From: an uncultured Bacteroidales bacterium
GTDB taxonomy: Bacteria; Bacteroidota; Bacteroidia; Bacteroidales; Bacteroidaceae
Length of the DNA stretch: 64,000 bases
Direction of reading: 5' to 3'
Assembly: GCA_902760965.1 (NCBI GenBank)
Contig: CACWIN010000001.1
Span: 83,686 to 147,685, forward strand
Shown: positions 17,540-51,131 of the stretch, one piece after another
Position numbering within the stretch: position 1 is the stretch's first letter
Layout: each line of letters begins with the position of its first letter
Position numbers and translations under genes: made by a program
Notes under the pieces: generated by a model
Databases searched by the model: none
Seen by the model: only the letters and a program-made list of their open reading frames with translations
Told to the model about the DNA's origin: nothing

Positions 17540-18844
17540 TTATAAATTGGTTATTATTTTGGTCAATCCTATACTGTTTGAACCTTTAATAAGTATACTG
17601 TATCCGCTCAAAGATTCAATTTTAAGGGCTTGGTTCACGGACTCCACATCTTCAAAGAGCCTGAATCCGGACCCTTGAGCAACTTTTTTGAACTCGCAGC
17701 CTACCAACCACACCTTAGTAAAACCCTTTTCCTTAAGCAGGTCCACTATATTTCTGTGCTCAGCTTGGGACACCTCTCCAAGTTCTCTCATATCACCCAG
17801 TATAAGCATCTTGTCATCTGCTTTCATCATACTGAAATTCTCTATAGCAGCAGTCATGCTTGTAGGGTTTGCGTTATATGCGTCAACCACCAGATGGTTA
17901 CGTCCCGTCTCCGTCAACTGAGAACGGTTGTTCTGGGGTTTGTATCCTGCCACCGCATCCGATGCATCCTGCTCCTTTACTCCAAACTTAAGGCCGATGG
18001 TTATGGCGGCAAGAGCATTGTCAACATTGTAGGCACCAATCAGATTGGTCTGGACTATGTGCCATTCACCCTTACGGCTGCGCCAACGGAACTTGACAAA
18101 AGGATTGCACTCCAGTACCTCACCTTCCACAAGAAGTCCTTCCTGTCCGGGCTTGCCGTACTCAATAAGCGGCAGCCCAGCACACATCTGCTGCAGATGC
18201 CCGTTGTCACGGTTCACAAATGCAGTTCCATTATGCTCACGCAGCCAGTCATACAGTTCACCCTTGGTGCGCATAACTCCCTCAAAAGAGCCGAATCCCA
18301 ACAAATGCGCCTTACCAACATTGGTTATCAGTCCGTAATCCGGCTGGCTTATCTCAACCAGTTCCTTTATGTCACCCGGATGGCTTGCACCCATCTCCAC
18401 AATAGCATAATCATGGTCAGGTTTAAGCCCAAGTACGGTTAAAGGGACACCTATTGAGTTGTTGAGATTGCCCTGTGTACACAATATATTATAGGTGGTG
18501 CTCATTACGGCATTGGTAAGTTCCTTGGTGGTGGTCTTTCCGTTGGTTCCAGTTATCCCTATAACAGGAGTTCCCAACTGCCTGCGGTGATAAGCCGCTA
18601 CCTGCTGCAAAGTGCGGAGTACGTTATCTACAAGAATCATCCGTGAATCCGTATCATCGTATAGTTCCGCATCATCCATGACAGCATACCGGCAGCCCTT
18701 TTCCAGCGCTCCGCGAACAAACTCATTGCCGTCAAAACGCTCGCCCTTGAGCGCAAAGAACATCAGTCCCGGACCACATTTGCGGCTGTCAGTAGTAACA
18801 CCCGAGCACTCTTTAAACCTGCTGTAAATCTCCTCTATTTTCAT
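17540..18844 (-). CDS. murF: UDP-MurNAc-tripeptide:D-Ala-D-Ala ligase
   Basis: Adds D-Ala-D-Ala to the UDP-MurNAc tripeptide, the last cytoplasmic step before MraY. The 434-residue protein has the Mur ligase P-loop [19 protein letters not shown], the EMGASHPGDIKEL segment, NVGKAHLLGFGS and the C-terminal DAYNANPTSM and LGDMRELG motifs. The start is the ATG at 18844 (MKIEEIYSRF), just after a promoter box; the frame is open 18 codons further upstream but without support. murF is outside the dcw cluster that carries the other mur genes, which is usual in this group. Confidence 0.96.
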   Translation of the reverse strand: MKIEEIYSRFKECSGVTTDSRKCGPGLMFFALKGERFDGNEFVRGALEKGCRYAVMDDAELYDDTDSRMILVDNVLRTLQQVAAYHRRQLGTPVIGITGTNGKTTTKELTNAVMSTTYNILCTQGNLNNSIGVPLTVLGLKPDHDYAIVEMGASHPGDIKELVEISQPDYGLITNVGKAHLLGFGSFEGVMRTKGELYDWLREHNGTAFVNRDNGHLQQMCAGLPLIEYGKPGQEGLLVEGEVLECNPFVKFRWRSRKGEWHIVQTNLIGAYNVDNALAAITIGLKFGVKEQDASDAVAGYKPQNNRSQLTETGRNHLVVDAYNANPTSMTAAIENFSMMKADDKMLILGDMRELGEVSQAEHRNIVDLLKEKGFTKVWLVGCEFKKVAQGSGFRLFEDVESVNQALKIESLSGYSILIKGSNSIGLTKIITNL

Positions 18845-18851
18845 TATAGCG

Positions 18852-18859
18852 CAAAAATA
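18852..18859 (-). promoter_or_regulatory. -7 promoter box for murF
   Basis: TATTTTTG on the minus strand, matching TAnnTTTG, 7 nt upstream of the murF ATG. It would drive murF, the SGNH hydrolase, folP and cdaA. Confidence 0.45.
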
Positions 18860-18936
18860 GAAAAATAACGTAAAATGGGCCACAGACATGAAAAACAAAT
18901 TTTTTTCAAATATTTTTTCATCTTAACATTTTTTCT

Positions 18937-46585: not shown

Positions 46586-47323
46586 TTATTTACGTTTTTT
46601 GCATACTACCTGATTGTCATACGCCACGCTTATGGAACGGTATTTGTTCCAACCCACGTTGTCCAGACCATTCTCATAAAAATTCATCAAACGGTCCAGT
46701 TTTCCCTCAATGTTATCGGGCGTTCCCAGTATGAGCAGATGGTCGCCCACGCGAGGCACAAGTTCTATCTGTCCCTCTCTGGTAACGTTTATCTGCTCCA
46801 CCTGAGCTTTCCAGAACTCCGAGCGGTCAATCGCGGCCACCACTTTCAACAGCTGGTCCGATGCAAACTTGCGGTCTATGTACCCGGTTGCCAACGGCAG
46901 CTGTACCGCCAGTGAATGCTGCGAAAGGATTTCACCCTTGCTGTCTACATAAAAATCCTGCCCGCGGTTGTTCATTACCCTGACCAAAGGCACCTTGCTG
47001 GAGATGTTTATCCTGAGCATGTCACCGCCAGTCTTATAGCACTCCACATTGCCAACCAGGGGATGAAGCCGCAAAGTCTGCTCTATCCTTTCCAGGTCTA
47101 TTCCGTCAAGCGGCAAGCCAACCGGATCAACGGACTGCTCCTGAAGCAGGGACAGAATCATGTTCTCGTCAATAAGCTCAATGTCAAGACTGTCCGTAAT
47201 ATGCAGGTCAACCCCTTTGCACATACGTACATCCTCGTGCCTGTCTGTCATAGCCACGGCTGAGAACACCAGGTATCCCGCCAGCAACAACACGCATAAT
47301 ATGGACAGTATCTTTTTAACCAC
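46586..47323 (-). CDS. ftsQ: Cell division protein FtsQ
   Basis: A bitopic division protein of 245 residues with an N-terminal membrane segment (VKKILSILCVLLLAGYLVFS) and a periplasmic POTRA-like part (DLHITDSLDIELIDENMILS, GNVECYKTGGDMLRINISSK, VPLVRVMNNRGQDFYVDSKG). It starts with GTG at 47323, two nucleotides after the murC stop, because no ATG is available near the amino terminus. Order and position between murC and ftsA are as in other dcw clusters. Confidence 0.88.
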   Translation of the reverse strand: MVKKILSILCVLLLAGYLVFSAVAMTDRHEDVRMCKGVDLHITDSLDIELIDENMILSLLQEQSVDPVGLPLDGIDLERIEQTLRLHPLVGNVECYKTGGDMLRINISSKVPLVRVMNNRGQDFYVDSKGEILSQHSLAVQLPLATGYIDRKFASDQLLKVVAAIDRSEFWKAQVEQINVTREGQIELVPRVGDHLLILGTPDNIEGKLDRLMNFYENGLDNVGWNKYRSISVAYDNQVVCKKRK

Positions 47324-47325
47324 CT

Positions 47326-49830
47326 TTATTCAAGTATTTTGGTTATGGTCTCAACATAATCTTCAAGGTCACCTGCGCCAAGAGTTACCAGAACCTGTAC
47401 ATCGTCCTTAATTGACTTGACCAGTTCCGGCACCTGACTGCGGGATACGATACCCTTGCATACTCCCGGTTTCATGTTATCGGCAAGCAGGCTGCTGGTA
47501 ACTCCGGGAATGGGTTGCTCCCTGGCAGGATATATTTCCAAAAGCCATACCTCGTCAAAGAGTGACAGGCTGTTGGCAAACTCGTTGTAAAAATCCCTTG
47601 TACGGGTATACAGATGAGGCTGGAATATACATGTTATCTTTCGGTCCGCATAGAGTTTGCGCAAGGACATGGCGCACTGCCTGATCTCTTCGGGATGATG
47701 TGCGTAATCGCTCAGGTAAACCTTATCGGCCTTTTTTACATGGAAATCAAAACGGCGGTCGCATCCGCGGAAAGTTGCTATACGCTCGCGTATCACATTG
47801 TCCGATGCCCCGCTCAGCTGAGCCATGGCCATTGCAGCCACCGCATTCTCAACATTTATGGGAATAGGTACGCCAAGTTCAACATCGGCAATACTGCCTA
47901 AGGGTGAAACATAGTCAAACCTGAGTTCACCGTTACCTATCCTTATGTTGGTAGCATGGAACGTACCCTCGTCCAAACCGTATGTATGCAGGTTCACCCC
48001 TTTCTGCAGCTGCGGCTGTAGTTTCTCCGCCAGACCCACATGCAGTATAAGGTCCCCTCCCGGTTTGATGAGCGATGTATATTTGCGGAAACTCTCCACA
48101 TAAGCCTGGTATGTACCGTATATATCCAGATGGTCAGCGTCAATGGCGGTAATTACAGTACGCAGCGGGGTCAGATGGTGGAACGAACGGTCAAACTCGT
48201 CGGCCTCGATAACCACCCTTCGGCTACGGTTACTTACCATTAGGTTACTGCCTATATTCTTTAGTATACCACCCAGGAACGCGTTGCAACCCTCATCGGT
48301 CCCGTCAAGGATATGGGCAACCATCGATGACGTGGTGGTCTTGCCGTGTGTTCCGGCCACGCAAAGACCGTCCAGAGAGCGGGTAAGCGTACCTAGCACC
48401 TGGGCGCGTTTCTGTACGTCAAAACAGTGCATATTGAACCAGTTCAGTATGCGGTTGTCGGCAGGAATGGCGGGAGTGTATACAACCAGTGTCGATGACG
48501 GGTCCCTGAAACACTCGTCAATCCTGTCAACATCATCATCAAAACCAATCCTGGCTCCCTCCTTGATCAATGCCGATGTAAGTTCGGTCGACGTCTTGTC
48601 ATAACCTCCAACCTGACAGCCCCTATTAAGGAAATAACGGACCAGGGCACTCATGCCTATACCGCCTGCGCCCACAAAATATACGGACTTTATGTCGTCA
48701 AGCTTTAGAGTGCCGTTGCCGTAACCTGCCAGCTTGAGCACTTCGTGGGCAATTATCTCGGCCGAATCGTGGTAAGCCAGCTTAAGGATATTCTCACGCA
48801 GGGTTTCAAGTCTTGCCGTATCCTTTACAAGGTCAACGGCAGCCGGAATAAGTTCCTTGCGGGCATCCACGTCACGGATATGTATTGCAGCACCCTTGTC
48901 GGACAAGGCAAGGGCATTCTTGGTCTGATGGTCCTCGGCCACATTGGGCGAAGGAACCAGGATAACAGGCTTACCCAACAGGCAAAGTTCCGATATGGTA
49001 CCTGCTCCTGCACGTGAAATAACCAGGTCCGATGCCGCATAAGCCTGATCCATATCCTGCACGAACTCGGTGGGGAAAAGATTTGGTACCGGTTGCTGGT
49101 CCGCCAGCCGGCTCTTCATCTCCTCAAAATAGAATTTGCCGGTCTGCCATACAAACTGCACATCCTGCGACATGCGTATCAGGTCCAGATTGGACATAAC
49201 GCTCTCATTAAGGGTTCGTGCGCCCAGACTTCCGCCCACAATCAGCACAATCCTTTTGGACGGGTCAAGCCCCATATTCTTTGCGGCCTCCTTACGGCTC
49301 ACACCACCTTTGGTCAGTGTAGGACGCACCGGATTACCGGTCTTTAATATCTTTTCGGCAGGAAAGAAACGTTCCATACCGTCATAAGCCACACAAATCC
49401 TGTTGGCTTTCTTTGCCAATATCTTGTTGGTCACTCCTGCATAAGAGTTCTGTTCCTGCAACAGAGTAGGTATTCCCATCTTTCCGGCTATACGCAGTGT
49501 AGGGCCGCTGGCATAACCGCCCACACCTACTGCAACCATAGGAGCAAACTGACGTATTATACGGCGAGCCATAATCTGGCTGCGCATAATCTTGAACAGG
49601 ACAATTATGTTCTTGAACGGATTCTTACGGTCAAATCCGCAAATGGGCAGACCTTTTATATTAAAGCCTGCAGCAGGAACACGCTGCATCTCCATTCGGC
49701 CCTGAGCACCTACAAACAGGATCTCAGCGTCAGGATTGAGCGACTTGATTGCGTGGGCTATCGATATGGCGGGAAAAATGTGTCCGCCCGTACCGCCTCC
49801 GCTTATTATTATTCTGGGTTTGGCTTCCAT
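47326..49830 (-). CDS. murG-murC: MurG-MurC fusion: lipid II synthase plus UDP-MurNAc:L-Ala ligase
   Basis: One uninterrupted frame of 834 codons. Residues 1-367 are MurG, which adds GlcNAc to lipid I at the membrane: IIISGGGTGGHIFPA at 7-21, GVGGYASGP at 102-110, VGGSLGARTLNES at 198-210, ISRAGAGTISE at 271-281. Residues about 377-834 are MurC, the cytoplasmic ligase that adds L-Ala to UDP-MurNAc: FVGAGGIGMSAL at 385-396, AGTHGKTTTSSM at 492-503, DEFDRSFHHL, DYAHHPEEI. The join (about 48700-48725) is AGYGNGTLKLDDI with no in-frame ATG; the nearest alternative is a GTG at codon 364. In other Bacteroidetes the two are adjacent separate genes, so this looks like a true fusion. Both active sites look intact. 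Confidence 0.9.
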   Translation of the reverse strand: MEAKPRIIISGGGTGGHIFPAISIAHAIKSLNPDAEILFVGAQGRMEMQRVPAAGFNIKGLPICGFDRKNPFKNIIVLFKIMRSQIMARRIIRQFAPMVAVGVGGYASGPTLRIAGKMGIPTLLQEQNSYAGVTNKILAKKANRICVAYDGMERFFPAEKILKTGNPVRPTLTKGGVSRKEAAKNMGLDPSKRIVLIVGGSLGARTLNESVMSNLDLIRMSQDVQFVWQTGKFYFEEMKSRLADQQPVPNLFPTEFVQDMDQAYAASDLVISRAGAGTISELCLLGKPVILVPSPNVAEDHQTKNALALSDKGAAIHIRDVDARKELIPAAVDLVKDTARLETLRENILKLAYHDSAEIIAHEVLKLAGYGNGTLKLDDIKSVYFVGAGGIGMSALVRYFLNRGCQVGGYDKTSTELTSALIKEGARIGFDDDVDRIDECFRDPSSTLVVYTPAIPADNRILNWFNMHCFDVQKRAQVLGTLTRSLDGLCVAGTHGKTTTSSMVAHILDGTDEGCNAFLGGILKNIGSNLMVSNRSRRVVIEADEFDRSFHHLTPLRTVITAIDADHLDIYGTYQAYVESFRKYTSLIKPGGDLILHVGLAEKLQPQLQKGVNLHTYGLDEGTFHATNIRIGNGELRFDYVSPLGSIADVELGVPIPINVENAVAAMAMAQLSGASDNVIRERIATFRGCDRRFDFHVKKADKVYLSDYAHHPEEIRQCAMSLRKLYADRKITCIFQPHLYTRTRDFYNEFANSLSLFDEVWLLEIYPAREQPIPGVTSSLLADNMKPGVCKGIVSRSQVPELVKSIKDDVQVLVTLGAGDLEDYVETITKILE

Positions 49831-49838
49831 ACAGTTCC

Positions 49839-51131
49839 TTATATAGTTTGTTCGTCAAAAGTCTCTTTTCCGTCAACAAGCGGAGGCATCTGGGTTTCGG
49901 TACCAACCACCTGTTCGCCACTCTCCTCCTTTTGGAGAGCGTTGCTTATTCCAAGCAGCATGCCAATGCAGAAACTGGTCATAAGAACCGATGTTCCGCC
50001 TTTACTGATAAGCGGCAACGGCTGTCCGGTTACCGGGAACAGTCCTACTGCGACCGACATGTTTATGAACGCCTGGAGTCCCAACAGCATTCCCAGGCCC
50101 ATGGCCAGGAATACCGGATATTTTTCCTTGCATCGGTTGGCTATACGCCCCACCCTGAACAGCAGGATCATATATACCAGCATGACCACAATGCCACCTG
50201 CCATGCCCAACTCCTCTATTATTATTGCATAGATAAAGTCACAGCTGGCCTCCTGCAGATAATCGCGCTCAACAGAGTTGCCGGGGCCCTTGCCCAGTAT
50301 ATTACTGGTGGCAATTGCAATGTTGGCATGTGTCTCCTGAGGCTTTTCGGGGGCAACAAACTTGGCATATTCATATGCGGTGGGAGTCCCTTCGCTTCCG
50401 GGCTGGAAAAAATCCTGCAGACGGGCCTGCCATGTGGTAGCACGTGACGGAATCAGTTTTGAATCCCTTATGGTCTGGGCTGGCACAAACAACAGAATCA
50501 CCACAGCCACTATTCCTGCAGCCAACGCAATTCCCGTAAGTGTAAGCATACGTCTCCAGGCTATTCCTCCCAATATCATCATGACAAAGATTACACCGGC
50601 CAGAAGCACTGCGGTTGAAAGGTTCTCACCTACAATCAGGGCGCATACAACACCCGTAAGAGCCAGGATTTTCCAGAATGTGTTGGCTTGGCTCAGTTCA
50701 TCATCGGGTTTCAGTTTTGAGAGCCATGACGCCACAGCCATTATGACTGCAATCTTGCCCAGTTCCGAAGGCTGTAGCTGAAAGAATCCCAGATTAATCC
50801 AGCGTTCAGCACCCGATGAGGCGGCACTTTGAATTGAAAGAAAGGCCAACAGACCTATTGAAACCGGTACCAGAATTATTGGGAAGGCTCTGTACCATTT
50901 GTAATGCAGTATATGCAATACATACATAACCCCCAATCCCATACCAAGATGTATGGCATGTGATATTATAGGTGTAAGAAAACTGCTCTTACCGAATGTC
51001 AGACGACTGCTGGCACTGAACACCTCTATCAGAGATATGGCGCACAGTATGAATACCATAGCCCAAATGGTACGGTCTCCATTAAGCAGTTGCCTGCGTG
51101 CCGGTTTTTGGTCTGTACTCTCCATATTCAT
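49839..51131 (-). CDS. ftsW: Septal peptidoglycan polymerase FtsW (SEDS family)
   Basis: A 430-residue polytopic SEDS glycosyltransferase that polymerises lipid II at the septum together with FtsI. Signatures include RWINLGFFQLQPSELGKIAV, LGKGPGNSVERDYLQEASCD, FIYAIIIEELGMAGG and GLFPVTGQPLPLISKGGTS. The catalytic Asp/Glu loop is conserved. Immediately before murG-murC, 8 nt apart; start at the ATG 51131, with a second ATG two codons later. Confidence 0.95.
   Translation of the reverse strand: MNMESTDQKPARRQLLNGDRTIWAMVFILCAISLIEVFSASSRLTFGKSSFLTPIISHAIHLGMGLGVMYVLHILHYKWYRAFPIILVPVSIGLLAFLSIQSAASSGAERWINLGFFQLQPSELGKIAVIMAVASWLSKLKPDDELSQANTFWKILALTGVVCALIVGENLSTAVLLAGVIFVMMILGGIAWRRMLTLTGIALAAGIVAVVILLFVPAQTIRDSKLIPSRATTWQARLQDFFQPGSEGTPTAYEYAKFVAPEKPQETHANIAIATSNILGKGPGNSVERDYLQEASCDFIYAIIIEELGMAGGIVVMLVYMILLFRVGRIANRCKEKYPVFLAMGLGMLLGLQAFINMSVAVGLFPVTGQPLPLISKGGTSVLMTSFCIGMLLGISNALQKEESGEQVVGTETQMPPLVDGKETFDEQTI

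Follow-up and report, generated by a model that had tools for sequence, protein, structure and literature searches.

The murG-murC locus

The window, i.e., the whole stretch of 64,000 nt of Bacteroidales DNA that was analysed, carries on its minus strand the genes ftsI, murE, mraY, murD, ftsW, murGC, ftsQ, ftsA and ftsZ. The initial annotation had described a stop-free frame of 834 codons that joins MurG to MurC within the order ftsW-murG-murC-ftsQ. Both the frame and the gene order are confirmed for the window; respective coordinates are given in Table 1. Among the neighbours, ftsI is named by its position and by penicillin-binding-protein models that score below their cut-offs, and ftsW reaches 250.5 bits with TIGR02614, which is below the cut-off of that model. 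For ftsQ, no NCBIfam match was obtained at E up to 1e-30. As listed, the ftsQ frame has a predicted GTG start at window position 47323, 2 nt past the murC stop.

Table 1. Features of the fused gene and its direct neighbours (positions in the window)
Feature	Position	Strand	Basis and remarks
fused murG-murC gene	47326..49830	minus	834 codons + stop, single open frame, ATG start
MurG half, residues 1-367	48730..49830	minus	TIGR01133, Foldseek to solved MurGs
linker, residues 368-381 (~14 residues)	48688..48729	minus	secondary structure of the AlphaFold model
MurC-type half, residues 382-834	47329..48687	minus	TIGR01082, phmmer and Foldseek to solved MurCs
ftsW, upstream neighbour	49839..51131	minus	8 nt gap, other frame by coordinates; PF01098 213.5 bits
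ftsQ, downstream neighbour	46586..47323	minus	2 nt gap; PF03799 29.1 bits (cut-off 21)

Both halves had been described as complete, and the family models agree with this. NCBIfam matches cover residues 5-362 and 383-826, and five Pfam domains score above their cut-offs, namely Glyco_transf_28 (7-146) and Glyco_tran_28_C (194-345) in the MurG half as well as Mur_ligase (383-484), Mur_ligase_M (491-670) and Mur_ligase_C (692-818) in the MurC half. The MurG half scores 283.9 bits with TIGR01133 (cut-off 250.25; model positions 6-351 of 353), and Foldseek relates it to the solved MurGs 3s2u (TMt 0.89) and 1f0k (TMt 0.77).

The C-terminal half misses the cut-off of the murC model TIGR01082 by 8 bits (326.8 vs. 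335.1; model positions 2-445 of 449), and we therefore name it MurC-type, by its closest family. In the NCBIfam ranking of the window protein, murC is followed by the MurC-Ddl model (192.7 bits), Mpl (100.9) and MurD (79.3). When compared with solved structures, the best 12 chains (phmmer) and the best 21 chains (Foldseek) are all MurC. That is, this half most resembles MurC, the UDP-MurNAc:L-alanine ligase, an activity that is predicted by family. The separate MurCs of the unfused sister species introduced below also miss the cut-off (4/4 scored, out of six such species; 306.3-332.0 bits), so the low score is apparently a trait of the lineage and not a decay of the fused copy. The fused protein of genome G008 is above the cut-off with 337.7 bits.

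An AlphaFold model of the fusion, based on 32 sequences (mean pLDDT 85.3, pTM 0.64), predicts two folded halves and at this pTM leaves their relative arrangement unfixed. In this model, MurG ends with a helix at residues 356-367 and MurC begins with a strand at 382-386, which sets the linker borders in Table 1. For 10 pairs of fused genes, dN/dS ranges from 0.027 to 0.078 for MurG and from 0.017 to 0.091 for MurC; these are rough values, as several dS exceed 1, and the pairs are not all independent since some share a genome. They point to purifying selection on both halves.

Distribution and origin within the genus

A stop-free fusion was found in 31/37 genomes of the genus, with identities between 68 and 100%. 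The junction stretch measures 102 nt in 27 of these 31 genes, 99 nt in three and 105 nt in one. In the six unfused genomes (G011, G015, G016, G017, G022, G024), murG and murC are in different frames, and relative to the stop of murG the first in-frame ATG of murC is located at -17 to +11 nt. A scan of named species, which favours same-frame pairs, provided at least four fused cases among the 80 of 591 loci listed (L028, L029, L035, L047). Here, L028, L029 and L035 are titled Bacteroidales or Bacteroidaceae and come from gut sources; they correspond to the records G033, G018 and G008 and thus add no cases.

The window genome (G000) is a 2.3 Mb draft in 93 contigs (81% complete), so one might ask, as the initial annotation did, whether a sequencing or assembly error erased a stop or frameshift between two separate genes; this is ruled out by the stop-free junctions of relatives from different species, three of which (L028, L029, L035) stem from differently named projects.

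Each of the 37 genomes has a single murG match. Copies of murC were counted by family model in the window genome alone, where the best match (329 bits, below the cut-off) is the fused gene itself and the next one (139 bits) is MurD; at the completeness of this draft, the count leaves some room for a second murC. We also inspected a wider family sample of 301 genomes. From the 280 genomes outside the genus, 53 full-length matches that span both genes were listed, and each is interrupted by one stop or more. Seven genomes with large open-frame figures (G055, G100, G159, G198, G227, G065, G120) were considered as further fusions of the family; all seven are unfused on re-reading.

Regarding the number of fusion events in the genus, the trees differ. 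When only MurG and MurC are used (46 sequences), the tree places the fused genomes G008 and G013 apart from the other fused genomes, which hints at two separate fusions, but constraining this tree to a single origin is not rejected (AU 0.34 and 0.35). The hint is not repeated by a tree of ten dcw proteins (21 genomes, 4393 columns; the ten include MurG and MurC, one genome has a partial FtsZ and four have a partial FtsI). Here, the 12 fused genomes group together with a support of 93, parsimony yields one change, and constrained and free trees are equal in likelihood. Most likely, the genes were fused a single time, in a common ancestor of the species that carry the fusion, while two events within the genus are possible.

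Judging from the unfused sister species, the stop of murG and the start of murC would originally have been within about 20 nt of each other and in different frames. Given this closeness and the difference in frame, a small indel at the junction along with the loss of the stop would have joined the two frames in this ancestor. Our main reading, to which we assign a probability of about 0.85, is that of a bifunctional MurG-MurC enzyme, predicted from sequence to be one polypeptide with a short linker and to have been fused once in the genus.

Fusions in other Bacteroidales and in the literature

Within an order-wide sample (393 genomes), 53 matches were found at E up to 1e-210, and four of them are stop-free, i.e., those of the window genome, G507, G511 and G366. 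The resulting rate of 3/392 other genomes is a lower bound, since distant cases or cases with long linkers fall below the E limit. In a phylum sample (395 genomes; E up to 1e-200), 17 matches were obtained, and that of the window genome is the only stop-free one. A MurG-MurC fusion with a longer linker is found in L047, a Paludibacteraceae record. The fused proteins of G507, G511, G366 and L047 each exceed the cut-offs of the two family models, MurG and MurC. Trees that constrain all fused sequences to one clade, or that group each of these four with the fusions of the genus, are rejected (AU 3e-97 to 3e-5, with constrained trees from a fast-mode search).

In family f91, at least 9/39 sampled genomes carry a fusion (8 full-length stop-free matches plus G1117 on re-reading; 21/39 genomes were re-read). 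The respective linkers differ, the carriers are interspersed with unfused relatives, and grouping the fusions in a single clade is rejected with AU 3.5e-10. Parsimony on the f91 tree of 24 sequences gives 6 changes, one of which is L047; several nodes are weak and the number of f91 fusion events is uncertain. On the basis of these comparisons, we count at least five separate Bacteroidales lineages with MurG-MurC fusions, where repeated fusion is indistinguishable from an older fusion followed by later splitting.

The linker of G1117 (L169:2168-2247) is made of short-peptide repeats, and the stretch contains a 7-bp tandem repeat of 11.4 copies. Since 7 is not a multiple of three, a change in copy number would bring MurC into or out of frame with MurG, such that a switchable MurG-MurC fusion is conceivable in this genome.

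MurG-MurC gene fusions as such have been published. The legend of Figure 3 in a 2016 review names C. gilvus (PMC4929429), and MurG/MurC fusions are again mentioned in a 2019 paper (PMC6420597). By its description, on which our comparison is based, the C. gilvus fusion also combines the neighbouring dcw genes murG and murC in one gene and involves non-consecutive steps, but it is from an actinomycete while ours is from Bacteroidales. We take the genus of C. gilvus to be Cellulomonas. Verrucomicrobium spinosum reportedly has a MurB-MurC fusion enzyme, in which MurC is likewise joined to another cell-wall enzyme; the partner differs, as MurB catalyses the step directly before MurC. The MurE-MurF fusion described for Bordetella pertussis (PMC6420597) is similar in that one chain holds two cell-wall enzymes with a linker of about 20 residues, but its steps are consecutive and it has been studied biochemically.

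Another Mur-ligase fusion is present in the window genome outside the window, i.e., MurF-alanine racemase (L161:1142-3610; NF008897, 1253.9 bits, cut-off 804). It also joins a Mur ligase to another enzyme, but the partners are different and NCBIfam provides a dedicated equivalog model for it, while no MurG-MurC model is among the best 25 of 30 NCBIfam matches of the window protein. As the window additionally contains a stand-alone MurF (17540-18898, minus strand; TIGR01143, 374.8 bits), the genome has two MurF-type genes.

In the literature searched, which was mostly judged from listings, we found no paper on a MurG-MurC fusion in Bacteroidales, and none that reports fusions in at least five separate Bacteroidales lineages rather than in one clade. 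That is, this kind of fusion is known, and its recurrence in several separate lineages of one order was not found in this literature.

Possible readings: chance joining, tethering and free MurC

The N-terminal half would act as the lipid II synthase MurG and the C-terminal half, by family, as a MurC-type L-alanine ligase. The earlier description of an in-frame fusion of two enzymes with non-consecutive steps is supported. What the fusion does beyond this can be read in different ways.

The fusion may well be neutral, for which we see about even odds. In this case, adjoining, co-oriented and nearly overlapping genes would have been joined by chance indels and the halves would work as before. 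The fusion would then persist because MurC lost its own start, and the tethering would be without function. The short gaps to the first in-frame murC ATG in the unfused sister species are consistent with this, and so is the linker, which is variable in sequence and without lasting synonymous constraint. Moreover, the linkers differ in the fusions of other families, one of them being the 7-bp tandem repeat. As a control, we considered FtsW-MurG (385 genomes, E up to 1e-170), where 0/31 same-frame spans are stop-free. This is not clearly different from the 3/52 observed for MurG-MurC (E up to 1e-210), given differing limits and small counts; an enrichment of MurG-MurC over FtsW-MurG fusions was considered, and the cases are too few to claim it. 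The occurrence of fusions in at least five lineages might argue against chance, but such recurrence does not decide the matter.

More tentatively, the fusion could be an adaptive tether. MurC would then be kept at the membrane together with MurG, perhaps near MraY and FtsW, where it may aid a Mur complex or keep the first ligase and the last cytoplasmic enzyme at a constant ratio. MurG has been described as a scaffold of Mur ligases (PMC6420597), several separate lineages carry fusions, and with MurF-alanine racemase the window genome has one more fusion of a Mur ligase. On the other hand, the halves could not hand over an intermediate directly since their steps are non-consecutive, and unfused relatives are common (6/37 in the genus, as well as the stop-containing 53/53 full-length family matches listed). 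We rate a neutral origin, which fits the close co-oriented pair and the variable linker, above the tether. The wider claim that MurG-MurC fusion is a recurrent adaptation of Bacteroidales, by which the first ligase of the pathway is tethered to the lipid II synthase at the membrane within a Mur assembly, appears unlikely to us.

Finally, the fused frame might additionally give rise to a free MurC via an internal start, which we consider improbable. The initial annotation had stated that MurC has no in-frame ATG; this is true for residues 362-386 of the window gene, where GTGs are in frame at 364 and 386. Among the 31 fused genes, a GTG at residue 364 is found in 14, an ATG at residue 353, i.e., in the last part of MurG, in 16 (the window gene is not one of them), and an ATG at residue 370 or 377 in 3. 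However, no start column (ATG/GTG/TTG) within residues 345-392 is common to all 31 genes, and 6/31 have no such codon in frame at residues 362-386. Synonymous change, computed for 21-codon windows, is average to high for starts 355-380 (55th-96th percentile of the gene), though slightly low for starts 340-350 (18th-30th percentile). Neither the start columns nor the synonymous change support a conserved internal start or a constrained junction signal, and the genes give no clear sign of a retained start signal for MurC.

Among the separate fusions, an in-frame Met is located near the expected MurC start in G511 (family f96, L157:1997-4483) and within the linker in G1120 (family f91), such that a free MurC is possible in both. 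For the genus, a fixed 1:1 ratio of MurG to MurC would follow if free MurC is absent, a condition favoured by the finding that no internal start is conserved.

The fusion, found in a group of gut Bacteroidales, joins genes for different steps of cell-wall synthesis. It touches the open question in the field whether MurG holds the Mur ligases together in a complex. The fused species and their unfused sisters provide matched pairs in which effects of MurC tethering on localisation, flux and inhibitor access may be compared, and, if repeated fusion is indeed adaptive, they would be a natural experiment on the importance of the Mur complex.
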